DNA of 25,003 bases from a virus: positions 1 through 25,003 of IMG/VR virus record IMGVR_UViG_3300035698_010733; one strand, written 5' to 3'. Both the position numbers and the translations under genes were made by a program. Position 1 is the stretch's first letter. The number at the start of each line of letters is the position of its first letter. The notes under the pieces were generated by a model. It did no database searches and had not been told where the DNA came from. It was given only the letters and a program-made list of their open reading frames with translations. Below are positions 13,103-20,928 of this stretch, piece by piece.

Positions 13103-13113
13103 GCTCTACTCCT

Positions 13114-13145
13114 AAAAAAAGAGGCCGAGGCCAAAAGCCCCGACC
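13114..13145 (-). terminator. Intrinsic terminator after the small capsid-associated gene
   Basis: On the minus strand a nine-base-pair stem (GGTCGGGGC pairing with GCCTCGGCC, two G-U pairs) with a five-base loop TTTTG is followed by TCTTTTTTT. The T tract ends about nine bases before the next ribosome-binding site. It would end or attenuate transcripts from the capsid region before the tail genes. Confidence 0.8.
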
Positions 13146-13159
13146 CCTTTCCTCGTGTA

Positions 13160-13169
13160 CCCACACCCC
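13160..13169 (-). promoter_or_regulatory. GGGGTGTGGG element, complementary to the terL and scaffold leaders
   Basis: On the transcribed strand the sequence right after the stop codon of the 84-residue gene is CTCGCA, then GGGGTGTGGG, then TACACGAGGAAA, then the terminator. GGGGTGTGGG is the exact reverse complement of CCCACACCCC found before the large terminase and scaffold starts. The flanking CTCG and CGAG can form a short stem that would hold the G-rich part in a loop. The function as a pairing site is inference. Confidence 0.4.
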
Positions 13170-13175
13170 TGCGAG

Positions 13176-13430
13176 TTACGCGAACGTGTCAATCGCCGCT
13201 ATGACAACAGCGTTGGCCGCTGAAATGGTCGAGACGTGTGCATCAAAATCAGCGTCAGACGCGTGAATTCGAATGCGATCACTGACCGCCAAAAGACCAC
13301 CGGCTGCGGCTGCATCAAAATAGTTTGCACCTTTGATGGTCGCTTTGCTGTCGGCTGAATTGTAAGTGAACGAGCCAAGACCGGCGCCAGTGCCGCCCTC
13401 CCGTTCCAGGTTTTTAAGTGTAAAAGCCAT
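13176..13430 (-). CDS. Small capsid-associated protein, possibly head decoration
   Basis: This 84-residue protein has no recognised enzymatic motif. It contains FTYNSADSKATIKGANYFDAA, then a segment LLAVSDRIRIHASDADFD and an alternating hydrophobic C-terminus (VVIAAIDTF), suggesting a small beta-rich fold. I recall similar short proteins encoded directly after major capsid proteins of several podoviruses and siphoviruses. The gene has a perfect AGGAGG ribosome-binding site five bases from the ATG, which together with its position after the capsid gene suggests abundant expression. A terminator-like hairpin lies between it and the capsid gene, and another follows it. A decoration or capsid-stabilising role is plausible but unproven. 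Confidence 0.6.
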   Translation of the reverse strand: MAFTLKNLEREGGTGAGLGSFTYNSADSKATIKGANYFDAAAAGGLLAVSDRIRIHASDADFDAHVSTISAANAVVIAAIDTFA

Positions 13431-13485: not shown

Positions 13486-14433
13486 TTAGCCGTTTTCGTC
13501 GGTTGTGATTTCAACCAGACCACCGGCGTCAATGTCGATCGCGTTTGCAGAGAACAACATGTTTGCCAACCAGGACGTCTTGGTCGGAATATAGTTGATC
13601 TCCATGCGCTGATCGATCCCGACCGCGTGTCCCATTGCGCTTTTCGCATACGCAAAGTTTGTGCGGTCGCCAGCCGTTAGATCAAGGCCACCCTCTGCAC
13701 GCGAGGCGATCCATTTGAAGTGCATACCGAGAAACGAATTCACGTCACCGCTGACCAGCGCGCGAACGCTGTTGAAATCCGCGCTTGTGACTTCGGTCGC
13801 GCCAAGCAACGCATCCTTGCCAAAATACGAACCCACGAAAGTGACTTCCTCGTCCTCACCAACGCCGCCGTCGCCCAAGAGGCGAAGAATTTGGCGCAGC
13901 TTAGTCACGTTCAAATCGGTGCTTGCGCCACCAACGGAGCTCGCAACGGTCAAGGCCGTGCTCGCAGCTTCCATTGCGTCGATTAGCAGCTGATCTTCAC
14001 GGCGTTTGATCGCCATGGAAATCGACTTAGCCAATTCCGCCCGCTCTGAAATTTTGGTTTTGCTGCCGTCAAATACGTCTGTGTATTCAGCCGCGTTCCA
14101 ATCTTCCAACGTCACAGTTTGATTGTTGTGCTGCAGGTTCATCGGAATGACGTCGGTTTGAGGAACTCGCTGCGTCGCCAGCCCCTTGCCTAGTTTGTTA
14201 AATCGGTGCGTGGAGCCCACAACGCCGGTCTTAACTCGGACCGTATCGCGGAGTTTCCCGCTGTCCTGGTAGGCGTGCTTAACGTCGTTAGCAAACGAGG
14301 CGATCGCGGCGACCGAAAGGCTGATCGATCCGGCTTCGTCCCATAGAAATTCGCGGTTTGGAACAAATGCGAGAGAGATAATTGCGCCAAGAACTACGCG
14401 AATAGACGAGGCGATAGATTTAAGGATGGTCAT
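13486..14433 (-). CDS. Major capsid protein
   Basis: From residue 39 the protein reads LSVAAIASFANDVKHAYQ, then KLRDTVRVKTGVVGSTHRF, KLGKGLATQRVPQTDVIPMN and LEDWNAAEYTDVFD, which I recognise as the conserved start of a podovirus capsid family (Phage_capsid_3-like, HK97 fold). The length, 315 residues, fits. It forms the icosahedral shell and would assemble on the scaffold encoded just upstream. The ATG at 14433 has a strong AAGGAG site eight bases upstream, and I see no alternative start closer to residue 39. The first 38 residues, including a hydrophobic run SIRVVLGAIISLAFV, are therefore an unusual N-terminal extension compared with what I recall of the family. The gene is flanked on both sides by terminator hairpins. 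Confidence 0.85.
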   Translation of the reverse strand: MTILKSIASSIRVVLGAIISLAFVPNREFLWDEAGSISLSVAAIASFANDVKHAYQDSGKLRDTVRVKTGVVGSTHRFNKLGKGLATQRVPQTDVIPMNLQHNNQTVTLEDWNAAEYTDVFDGSKTKISERAELAKSISMAIKRREDQLLIDAMEAASTALTVASSVGGASTDLNVTKLRQILRLLGDGGVGEDEEVTFVGSYFGKDALLGATEVTSADFNSVRALVSGDVNSFLGMHFKWIASRAEGGLDLTAGDRTNFAYAKSAMGHAVGIDQRMEINYIPTKTSWLANMLFSANAIDIDAGGLVEITTDENG

Positions 14434-14540
14434 TTTGCCAACTCCTTCAAGGTTTCAATCTGATGGGATCAAAGGGCCTTGAGCGTTGGGCCTGTCCTTA
14501 ACGGCTGGGTGCCTAGCTCGCGGGTCTGTTCTTGGCAGGC

Positions 14541-14568
14541 AATATACAGACGATGGAAAATGGAGCAA
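14541..14568 (-). promoter_or_regulatory. Candidate sigma70-type promoter for the capsid gene
   Basis: Just downstream of a strong terminator the minus strand has TTGCTC, a 16-base spacer and TATATT, reasonable matches to -35 and -10 boxes. The leader to the capsid ATG would be about 100 bases. The location makes sense because the terminator would otherwise shut off capsid expression, but the -35 match is partial and no experimental support can be drawn from sequence alone. Confidence 0.4.
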
Positions 14569-14571
14569 GGC

Positions 14572-14611
14572 AAAAAATAAACCCGCAGCCGACACTACAA
14601 CGGCTGCGGGT
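14572..14611 (-). terminator. Intrinsic terminator between scaffold and capsid genes
   Basis: On the minus strand ACCCGCAGCCG and CGGCTGCGGGT form a perfect 11-base-pair stem with a nine-base loop, followed by TTATTTTTTG. It lies about 45 bases after the scaffold stop codon and is the strongest terminator in the window. Confidence 0.9.
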
Positions 14612-14655: not shown

Positions 14656-15672
14656 CTATAGCATGTCGGTTCTGATCGAGCCAGCGCTTTCGTTGCCGTA
14701 GGCTTTGTCCATTGCGGCTTGTGCCGCTGCTCTGGCCGCGTCTTTTTCTGGGCCATCTTTCATCGCGAGCGCTGCGGCCTGTGCTGCATTGGCTTCGGCC
14801 TTGGTTGCCGCGCCCTCTCCACCCTGAGCCAACGGGATAGGCTTTTCGCCCAAATAGTCCGTCATCAGCTTGTAAAACGCGTGTGTGCTTTGAGCTGTGC
14901 CAAGCGCGACCCGCATTTCGGCCTGATCCTCGGGCGACCAAATACCGCGCTCAACCATCTTGGTTGTCAGGCTGTCCACCGTGTTGATCATTGTGCTGGC
15001 TTCTTTCTTGCCAACAGTTTCGCCAAGCGCCTCGACCTCTGCAACCTGGCTGATTTCCTGCGCCTGCTCTGGCGTCTGGCCGATCGGAACGCCCGCCTCG
15101 GATAACCGGCCAAGCCCGCCGCGAATGAACTTTTCGAATGCAGCGTCAGGAATGCCAGCCTCGAGCGCTGCGGCCCTGAATGCGTCCATTGCTGGCTTGC
15201 TGGCTTCGCTGTTGATTTCGGCCCCGATCGCGTCGTCGTCGCCAGTTGCCTCGATCTTGTAGCCATCCACGGTATCAGGGACCGCGCCGTCCTTGCCGTT
15301 GGCTATCGTCGCGCGAGCGCCTGAATATGCGTGCAGAACCTTTGCCAGAGTGTCGTCGGCGTCTTTGCCTCGCAGGTGCTCGGGAACCGTGTCCGGCGCT
15401 GCATATTTGTCTCCATCGCCATCGCCCTCCCCATCGCCCTCCCCATCGCCATCGCCCTCTCCTTTGCCAGCCGCGTCGAGAATTGACTGCGATTTCGTTT
15501 TGTCGCCGTCTCCCAATCCCTCGCCATCAGCTCCCTCGCCATCGCCCTCCCCATCACCATCGTCGCCTCCGTCGCCAACCGCGCCGCACTCGTCGGCCCA
15601 GAAATTAAGAAAACGCCGCTCGACCCAGGATGTTCTGATCGACGGCAGGCTTTCAATAAATAGTTGTTTCAT
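14656..15672 (-). CDS. Scaffolding protein
   Basis: This 338-residue acidic protein lies between portal and capsid genes, the scaffold position. After an N-terminal 30 residues it has two Gly/Asp/Glu repeat tracts (about residues 37-47 and 69-87, GDGEGDG type) coded by hexamer DNA repeats. Residues about 90-140 contain YAAPDTVPEHLRGKDADDTL and KVLHAYSGAR, a segment typical of podovirus scaffolds. The rest is helical, with an Ala-rich stretch (KAEANAAQAAALAM) and a C-terminal helix (AAQAAMDKAYGNES) that may contact the capsid. The ATG at 15672 has GAGGA about eight bases upstream; before that lies the CCCACACCCC motif shared with the terminase leader. The acidic repeats could be linkers. Confidence 0.85.
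   Translation of the reverse strand: MKQLFIESLPSIRTSWVERRFLNFWADECGAVGDGGDDGDGEGDGEGADGEGLGDGDKTKSQSILDAAGKGEGDGDGEGDGEGDGDGDKYAAPDTVPEHLRGKDADDTLAKVLHAYSGARATIANGKDGAVPDTVDGYKIEATGDDDAIGAEINSEASKPAMDAFRAAALEAGIPDAAFEKFIRGGLGRLSEAGVPIGQTPEQAQEISQVAEVEALGETVGKKEASTMINTVDSLTTKMVERGIWSPEDQAEMRVALGTAQSTHAFYKLMTDYLGEKPIPLAQGGEGAATKAEANAAQAAALAMKDGPEKDAARAAAQAAMDKAYGNESAGSIRTDML
15413..15466. repeat. Imperfect tandem hexamer repeat in the scaffold gene
   Basis: On the plus strand eight hexamers, each CCATCG or CCCTCC/CCCTCT, follow one another in register, then a decayed CCTTTG. On the coding strand they encode Gly-Asp and Gly-Glu pairs. Because six is a multiple of three, gains or losses of units keep the reading frame. 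Confidence 0.85.
15533..15562. repeat. Second hexamer repeat tract in the scaffold gene
   Basis: Five units of the same hexamer family (CCCTCG, CCATCG, CCCTCC, CCATCA, CCATCG) encode another Gly-Asp/Glu tract nearer the N-terminus of the scaffold. It is about 70 bases from the first tract, so recombination between the two is possible. Confidence 0.8.
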
Positions 15673-15686
15673 GCTCGTTTCCTCGT

Positions 15687-15697
15687 TGGGGTGTGGG
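15687..15697 (-). promoter_or_regulatory. CCCACACCCCA motif in the scaffold leader
   Basis: The minus strand reads CCCACACCCCA immediately before ACGAGGA, the scaffold ribosome-binding site. The same 11 bases occur before the large terminase start. The ACGAGGAAA that follows also occurs next to the inverted copy of the motif downstream of the capsid genes. It could be a pairing site or protein-bound operator; the role is inference. Confidence 0.4.
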
Positions 15698-15702
15698 TTT
15701 GA

Positions 15703-19278: not shown

Positions 19279-20910
19279 TCAATCTAGCGGGTCAAAATCC
19301 GCTGTTGCTATGTGCGAGTTATTGCCGACCTTATCACGTCCGCCCAATCGCGCAAACTCGCCTGCGCCGAGGAACCCATAACCGCCACCGTCACAAATGT
19401 GGCTTTCGTCGTTCTTGTTGGGTTTGTCCGCGTACCGATCCTGACCGATAACCTGCACGCGTTTGTAATGCCAAGCTCCCATGAGCCCTTTATGAAACGT
19501 AGGACACCCTTCGCGATTTACAAGCAGGCCAGGCTGGCCGTCAATCAATCTCTCGCACGGCCCGCCGATCGCAGCCGCCCGCATCCTGGGGTCTTGGCTT
19601 GGCGCAGCCTGCAGGTTTATGTCGAATTCCGTCCGCAGAAAATCAAAGCTGGCCGTTTCGAATATCTCGTCGCGCTTTTCGCCAGCCGGATCGCCCCAAC
19701 CCGTGCCGGTAAGGCCGCGCTCTACATGGCTTGGGAAGTGCTCAACGAGGGCAGACTTGACCAGCTCGCCGAACCGCTTCACGCCCAGATCGAAACAAAC
19801 AACCTCTCTGTGCGCCAGGAGCATTCCGCGCGGGTGCTTTTGAAACAGCAATGCGGACGGCTGCAGCGTACCGCCGCCAATGTCCGCGCCGATCAGGATT
19901 GGCTGATCCGCCAGAACCGGCAAGTGCTCACGGCTGTGCGTCGTTGCGTTGTACTGCGGCACAACCCGCTTGCCGTCTGACACGAACGTGTAAACGCCCT
20001 GCAGATAGCTATGGATTTCCTCAACCGTTTTACCGGCCAGCGCTCGCCCGTAATAGCTGCGCACGCCGAGCGGGTTTGCCCCCAGATTGACGCGAGACAG
20101 AGCAACCAGGTTTTCTTGCCAGGGATTGACGATCCATTGTCGCTCGGCCGATCGGATGATTTCAATCGGGCAGTCAACACGCTGCACGCGACCCTTGTGA
20201 TAAACCAGAACAACCGCGCTCGTCAGCCTGATCCCTTGATACTCTGGGAAATTCTCGTCGATGATTTCCGCGCCGCCCTTGTACGGCTGGACCTCGATCA
20301 CGCCGGGCGGTTGCTGGTGGAACGTGAACCCCTCGGGCTTAGAAACGTGATGCCACTTGTAAATCCAATGATCCGCGTCGGGCGGATTTGTGTCGCCCCA
20401 TATGCCGGACCAGCTGGTCGGTCGCTCGTTGATGCCATACCGGCCAACCCGCTCTGTCAGGCGCGTGACGATCGAACGCGGAACCTCTCTGAATTCGTTG
20501 ATAGCTGCGCCGGTCAGCTCGAGGCTCAACAGCTTCTTGACGTCCTTGGGCTTATCCAGCGCGATTAGATTGACCTCGACGTCCAGGTCCGTGCCGCGCG
20601 GTCGAATGTGGGCGGTTGCGGGCGATCGCCAAACAATCTCGCCAAAACTCTCGTCAGGGTAAATCTGGCCATAGGTGACGGCTGTTGTGGCGCGCAGCTC
20701 GGGCATTGTGTTTCGAATGACTGCGAAGCGCGAGCGACGTTTGCCGTCTGGGCTCGGTGCTTGTTCCTGGCCGTGATCGAGGAGCCGCTGCAGTAGGGGA
20801 ACAGACTTACCGGAACCAACCGGCCCAATTATGAAACTGGCAAAGCTGCGATCTGTTTTGAACTTCCAGGCGATCGGGCTGGTTTCGTAGGTCCATGTCT
20901 GTTCGGTCAT
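19279..20910 (-). CDS. terL: Terminase large subunit (packaging ATPase/nuclease)
   Basis: This 543-residue protein powers DNA packaging into the prohead and cuts the concatemer. The ATPase part has a Walker A motif GPVGSGKS at 29-36 and a Walker B-like strand ending in ELTGAAINEFREV (131-143) with catalytic Glu at 139. The nuclease part has likely metal ligands D343 (LIGADIGGG), D407 (GWGDPAG) and D501 or D507 (KNDESHICDGGGYG). The length and the 'LTGA.iNE' signature fit podovirus-type large terminases. The ATG at 20910 has no purine-rich ribosome-binding site; the leader holds CCCACACCCC instead, which is odd for an essential gene. No small-subunit gene was recognised beside it. Confidence 0.92.
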   Translation of the reverse strand: MTEQTWTYETSPIAWKFKTDRSFASFIIGPVGSGKSVPLLQRLLDHGQEQAPSPDGKRRSRFAVIRNTMPELRATTAVTYGQIYPDESFGEIVWRSPATAHIRPRGTDLDVEVNLIALDKPKDVKKLLSLELTGAAINEFREVPRSIVTRLTERVGRYGINERPTSWSGIWGDTNPPDADHWIYKWHHVSKPEGFTFHQQPPGVIEVQPYKGGAEIIDENFPEYQGIRLTSAVVLVYHKGRVQRVDCPIEIIRSAERQWIVNPWQENLVALSRVNLGANPLGVRSYYGRALAGKTVEEIHSYLQGVYTFVSDGKRVVPQYNATTHSREHLPVLADQPILIGADIGGGTLQPSALLFQKHPRGMLLAHREVVCFDLGVKRFGELVKSALVEHFPSHVERGLTGTGWGDPAGEKRDEIFETASFDFLRTEFDINLQAAPSQDPRMRAAAIGGPCERLIDGQPGLLVNREGCPTFHKGLMGAWHYKRVQVIGQDRYADKPNKNDESHICDGGGYGFLGAGEFARLGGRDKVGNNSHIATADFDPLD

Positions 20911-20917
20911 GTGTCAC

Positions 20918-20928
20918 TGGGGTGTGGG
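20918..20928 (-). promoter_or_regulatory. CCCACACCCCA motif in the terL leader
   Basis: The minus strand reads CCCACACCCCA and then GTGACAC just before the terminase ATG. It occupies the place where a Shine-Dalgarno site would be expected. The identical 11 bases precede the scaffold gene, and the reverse complement of ten of them lies downstream of the capsid genes. Function is inference. Confidence 0.4.

Follow-up and report, generated by a model that had tools for sequence, protein, structure and literature searches.

In a group of related marine phages, the 3' untranslated region (UTR) of the capsid transcription unit was found to carry a short element complementary to the start region of scaffold and, in some lineages, to that of the terminase large subunit gene (terL). 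The letters of the element are replaced between phages, yet the match persists; this points to a so far undescribed RNA switch that would balance the parts of head assembly. By sequence comparison, the complementarity, its placement at start regions and its conservation despite sequence replacement were established. The capsid-unit 3' UTR is likely to be a base-pairing regulator that turns down the translation of scaffold, and in some lineages of terL, in trans. We also lean, with more caution, towards a broader proposal: a conserved and rapidly rewired RNA circuit of podovirus-like phages of marine Alphaproteobacteria and their relatives, in which the 3' UTR of the capsid mRNA would be a trans-acting sensor of capsid expression setting scaffold/terminase translation, and in which seed and targets would evolve together, giving about a dozen codes distinct from one another. 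The observation behind this work, made in an earlier note on the same DNA, was confirmed and is stronger than one window could show; its interpretation as a whole was supported.

The window, i.e. the whole stretch of DNA analysed, comprises 25,003 bases of an IMG/VR virus record, and no near-identical phage record was found for it. All head and tail genes of the window (terL, portal, two small genes, scaffold, capsid, the 84-residue gene and tail tubular proteins) are on the minus strand. The gene referred to as scaffold is a match to the T7 capsid assembly protein family, Pfam PF05396. The features are as follows.

13113..13150, minus strand: intrinsic terminator with its stem at 13147-13127 and a T-run to 13114, closing the capsid transcription unit
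13159..13175, minus strand: 3'-UTR pairing element CTCGCAGGGGTGTGGGT, complement of the scaffold and terL leaders, pairing conserved in relatives
13159-13169, minus strand: core of the element, GGGGTGTGGGT, with the outer CTCG at 13172-13175
13159..13176, minus strand: hairpin 1, holding the pairing element with GGGG in the loop (RNA fold)
13176..13430, minus strand: 84-residue gene of unknown function (PHROG 18004), second in the capsid transcription unit
13486..14433, minus strand: major capsid protein gene (PHROG 3437, Pfam PF19821)
14434..14540, minus strand: capsid gene leader, long and conserved, outside the pairing (alignment of relatives)
14541..14568, minus strand: promoter-like site TTGCTC-N16-TATATT, between the scaffold and capsid genes
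14572..14611, minus strand: intrinsic terminator after the scaffold gene, acccgcagccg...cggctgcgggt TTTATTTTTT
14656..15672, minus strand: scaffold / capsid assembly gene, target 1 (Pfam PF05396 Phage_T7_Capsid, E 9e-9)
15682..15698, minus strand: whole target 1 site, with the scaffold leader ACCCACACCCC at 15688-15698 and the outer CGAG at 15682-15685, which overlaps the Shine-Dalgarno region; scaffold start codon at 15670-15672
19279..20910, minus strand: terL, target 2 (PHROG 2 and 979)
20914..20928, minus strand: whole target 2 site, with the terL leader CCCACACCCC at 20919-20928 and the extension AGTGA; terL start codon at 20908-20910

After the TAA of the 84-residue gene, the minus strand reads CTCGCA GGGGTGTGGG TACACGAGGAAA and then a strong terminator, with a U-tract 3' of the stem; the stretch between the gene and the terminator was also given as CTCGCAGGGGTGTGGGTACACGAGGAAA. 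The layout of a seed followed by a terminator, described in the earlier note, was found directly after this stop codon and again in relatives. The element does lie in the 3' UTR of the capsid unit, as claimed there, although it follows the second gene of the unit and not the capsid gene itself. In the transcript it reads CTCGCAGGGGTGTGGG(T), is located upstream of the intrinsic terminator and is a perfect complement of the scaffold and terL leaders. The motif GGGGTGTGGG/CCCACACCCC occurs in exactly three copies in 25 kb, one in the 3' UTR and one each, inverted, in the leaders of scaffold and terL. The helix with the scaffold leader has 11 bp and, past two mismatches, a four-pair CTCG/CGAG extension. 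The helix with the terL leader has 10 bp and a four-pair extension with one G-U among the four. Both helices had been proposed with these lengths and extensions, and both are present in the sequence. The reading of CCCACACCCC as a promoter was not favoured because the motif abuts start codons and its complement precedes a terminator. A cis-encoded antisense RNA was ruled out, the UTR and its targets being on one strand at separate loci.

The pairing was compared with chance expectation, since many moderate helices arise in GC-rich sequences. Because RNAduplex over long windows was too noisy in GC-rich DNA, a gapless nearest-neighbour helix score was used instead. Among the 35 gene leaders of the window, those of scaffold (-26.8 kcal/mol) and terL (-25.0 kcal/mol) were the two best partners of the UTR, followed by a third at -15.7 kcal/mol. 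The best value was reached somewhere by 13 of 1500 shuffled UTRs and the second-best by none, so no shuffle gave two matches of the observed strength. When the non-coding segments of the window were paired in every combination, the UTR-scaffold pair was in the top 2 of 1186. The equally strong pairing of shuffled controls for which the earlier note had suggested looking was found neither with UTR and leader shuffles nor with the segment pairs within the genome.

Relatives with identical gene order were gathered by MCP-based scans of IMG/VR, and the motif upstream of scaffold was conserved in them. An exact motif search detected CCCACACCCC in their scaffold leaders and not in their UTRs. A lack of conservation of the UTR half, suggested by the exact search for GGGGTGTGGG/CCCACACCCC, was rejected once the position-wise reading of the UTRs had revealed GCTGGGGTGTGG. 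Read by position, most UTRs of the nearer relatives carry TCCGCTGGGGTGTGG, a 13 bp complement of the leader CCACACCCCAGCG. In more distant relatives, UTR and leader have changed jointly, and each UTR element was complementary to its own leader: GGGGTGCGG in L041, TCGCCGGGAAACG in L042, TTTCCGCTTGGGGGTT in L050, TGACGCGTGGACGGGGT in L027, CCCTTGCTGTTGGGGCA in L055, CCTTGCTGTGGGG in L057, CTTTGTTGCTGA in L063, CCTTGCGGTAGGG in L137 and GCTCCCTTCTGGT in L190. Further compensated changes occur among the window's nearer relatives, an example being TGTGG/CCACA to TGCGG/CCGCA in L041. The helices of the relatives were 9 to 17 bp long and came in about a dozen distinct sequence versions.

For the statistics, 14 lineages were picked for their differing sequences, two non-pairing lineages included. 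The mean UTR-leader energy was -25.9 kcal/mol for own pairs vs -13.5 kcal/mol for swapped pairs, and the own value was reached in 0 of 200,000 permutations. With the target fixed beforehand, p ≤ 0.034 against both the shuffled UTR and the shuffled leader was obtained in 11 of the 14 lineages (Fisher ~1e-20). For L027, L036, L037, L137 and L190, the leader of a small gene immediately preceding scaffold was used; L137 and L190 additionally pair at the scaffold start. The pair of the UTR and a scaffold-module leader ranked 1-7 of all non-coding segment pairs in 17 of 22 loci. In these tests, lineages were taken as independent and leaders were assigned partly by hand. Pairing in L025, L035, L046 and L067 occurred only with mismatches or a bulge. 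Clear pairing was missing in the related lineages L048 and L124, in the latter of which the scaffold start overlaps the preceding gene, and no pairing was detected in the distant Methylophilales/Vibrio/Pelagibacter-type relatives examined. The covariation and conservation check put forward in the earlier note thereby gave complementarity that is kept despite changed letters, as judged by own vs swapped pairs and by shuffles. Chance complementarity in GC-rich phage DNA is contradicted by the shuffles, the swaps and permutation and the within-genome controls, and is extremely improbable. The UTR-leader pairing is well supported by these sequence comparisons.

The same data bear on a DNA-level inverted repeat, e.g. 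sites of one regulatory protein of which both copies change together with the protein. Non-Watson-Crick positions in the helices were G-U in 15 and A-C in 13 cases; this nearly even count gives no clear favour for RNA, so the test does not discriminate between pairing of RNA and an inverted repeat of the DNA. In every lineage, however, the leader carries the sense and the UTR the antisense copy, whereas the sites of a single protein could take either orientation. The UTR copy is moreover located within a hairpin ahead of a terminator, and the paired length and register vary among lineages. Joint change of two DNA sites for one protein is unlikely, and the inverted repeat as an explanation of the whole pattern was considered very improbable.

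The helix end is at most ~25 nt from the start codon, and about 3 to 21 nt upstream in the main targets. In several lineages, including the L055 clade, the Shine-Dalgarno sequence is covered by the helix. In L055, L056 and L057, the strongest partner of the UTR was the leader of a 546-549-residue gene (15 to 16 bp), which matches the terminase large subunit (PHROG 2). The target pair of the window, scaffold and terL, therefore recurs in a distant clade with capsid proteins only about half identical. The terL site is not conserved in the nearer relatives of the window, most of which are without it. The assignment of scaffold as the main and terL as the second target, made in the earlier note, holds. 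A possible third target was observed at L056:224-598, where the leader of a 124-residue gene ~9.8 kb upstream of the capsid gene is complementary to the UTR. In L138, the contig of which stops short of the UTR, two genes with leaders at -2219 and -1347 from the capsid match share CACCAGAAGGGA, as the targets of L190 do.

The sequence data establish pairing and not its sign, and a genuine RNA pairing could have a main effect other than repression: stabilisation or activation of the scaffold message, or formation of a duplex for RNase III processing. Such an outcome is rather unlikely, as the helix lies over or abuts the Shine-Dalgarno region, a position that usually blocks initiation. In addition, the short leaders are weakly structured alone in most lineages, which leaves little for pairing to relieve.

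In most pairing relatives, the UTR was predicted to form a short hairpin that places the seed in or close to its loop, and the terminator follows immediately. In the window, the terminator is directly 3' of hairpin 1, and it is kept in relatives. The local hairpin, taken in the earlier note as a possible competitor of pairing, does exist; it is recurrent and, according to the RNA fold, presents the seed, so that it is not merely a competitor. In the gap between the scaffold and capsid genes, an intrinsic terminator and a sigma-70-like promoter were predicted in most of the 25 loci scanned; the promoter-like site of the relatives at the equivalent place has a better consensus than that of the window. 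A separate transcription unit and a hairpin-terminator form of the element are thus predicted. With a terminator and a promoter-like site in this gap, the UTR element is probably on a transcript other than the scaffold or terL mRNA and would act in trans.

A cis alternative is that a single read-through polycistronic mRNA is made, the 3' element of which folds back over ~2.5 kb onto the scaffold start. The genes share one strand and order, and read-through of terminators is common. Against this long-range folding stand the terminator and promoter-like site that separate the scaffold gene from the capsid gene in most lineages and the second target, terL, at ~8 kb from the UTR element. Cis pairing was considered unlikely.

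In the preferred mechanism of repression in trans, the promoter between the scaffold and capsid genes would make a transcript consisting of the capsid gene, the small gene, the seed hairpin and the terminator. Either the whole capsid message or a short piece from its 3' end would carry the seed; a discrete small RNA from the UTR, its action in trans and the sign of its effect are inferred. By pairing in trans around the translation start of the scaffold mRNA, and of the terL mRNA too in some lineages, the seed would block ribosome loading. As the capsid message accumulates, the synthesis of scaffold and terminase would then fall, so that trans repression may provide a control of stoichiometry.

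Small RNAs derived from a 3' UTR and directed at genes of the unit they come from are already known in bacteria, e.g. the autoregulatory OppZ and CarZ of Vibrio cholerae (PMC7398697). Two features of this type of small RNA were found in the phage element: it lies in the 3' UTR of an mRNA and ends at a predicted intrinsic terminator, and its seed is complementary to the target start region and conserved by covariation. In both systems, an operon mRNA bears at its 3' end an element that base-pairs at a gene; with OppZ and CarZ, translation is inhibited (PMC7398697). In contrast, OppZ and CarZ are bacterial RNAs that RNase E releases and that target the transcript of their own operon (PMC7398697), whereas the source of the phage element is a phage capsid transcript and its main target is scaffold in the neighbouring unit. 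With the phage regulatory RNAs described in the part of a review considered here (PMC12197685), the capsid UTR shares the action of a phage RNA by base pairing; the cases in that part concern lysogeny, a late activator, endolysin or host genes, and the words capsid, scaffold and terminase are absent from the review. No paper on pairing of a capsid-message UTR with scaffold or terminase starts was found in a full-text literature search. With Rfam 15, no match at or above the gathering threshold was obtained in the window, and only a tRNA in relatives (eight of them).

The synthesis of P22 scaffold is under post-transcriptional control, described as dependent on the scaffold protein itself. P22 and the proposed role of the capsid UTR are alike in that scaffold output is matched to capsid assembly, and they differ in that the P22 control is described as exerted via the scaffold protein, without RNA pairing to the capsid message. 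To our knowledge, the control of the scaffold:capsid ratio in phages with separate genes is largely open beyond a few models. The UTR element would provide one answer, in the form of a specific and mutable RNA element with a testable rule: break the helix, restore the helix. The circuit would show that base pairing, and not just promoters, can coordinate phage late genes, and the many seed-target codes on a common wiring would form a natural collection of cognate pairs for studies of RNA recognition.

Relatives in the genome collection were detected in a Rhodobacteraceae MAG (13 bp pairing), a Sulfitobacter MAG and a contig of Pelagibius litoralis DSM 21314. In the 424-kb contig of this type strain, GACTCCCTTGCC pairs with the scaffold leader GGCGAGGGAGTT; the pairing was reached in 0/2000 shuffles for the scaffold leader alone and in 21/300 over all leaders. 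The head-tail gene cluster related to these phages (L250; NZ_JAAQPH010000002.1, 213013-231855) lies inside the contig and is therefore probably an integrated relative. Provided that its phage region is inducible, P. litoralis DSM 21314 would offer a test system that can be cultured.

Several features of the head genes were observed apart from the pairing. The scaffold gene contains short GD/GE-rich repeats (DGDGEGDGEG...) at 15408-15600 of the window, and relatives have them too. The capsid protein of the window (13486-14433) has ~33 additional N-terminal residues including a hydrophobic stretch, SIRVVLGAIISLAFV; this N-terminus is absent in most relatives, and a few (L004-L008) match across it. 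The capsid leader of ~105 nt (14434-14540, minus strand; L006:4205-4311 and others) has the strongly conserved blocks GCAGACCC, GGCACCC, AGGCCC and GGCCCTCG in the aligned clade members, including Dunaliella viridis virus SI2. The consensus structure given by RNAalifold for this leader was weak, so the blocks may have a binding partner or may pair elsewhere.
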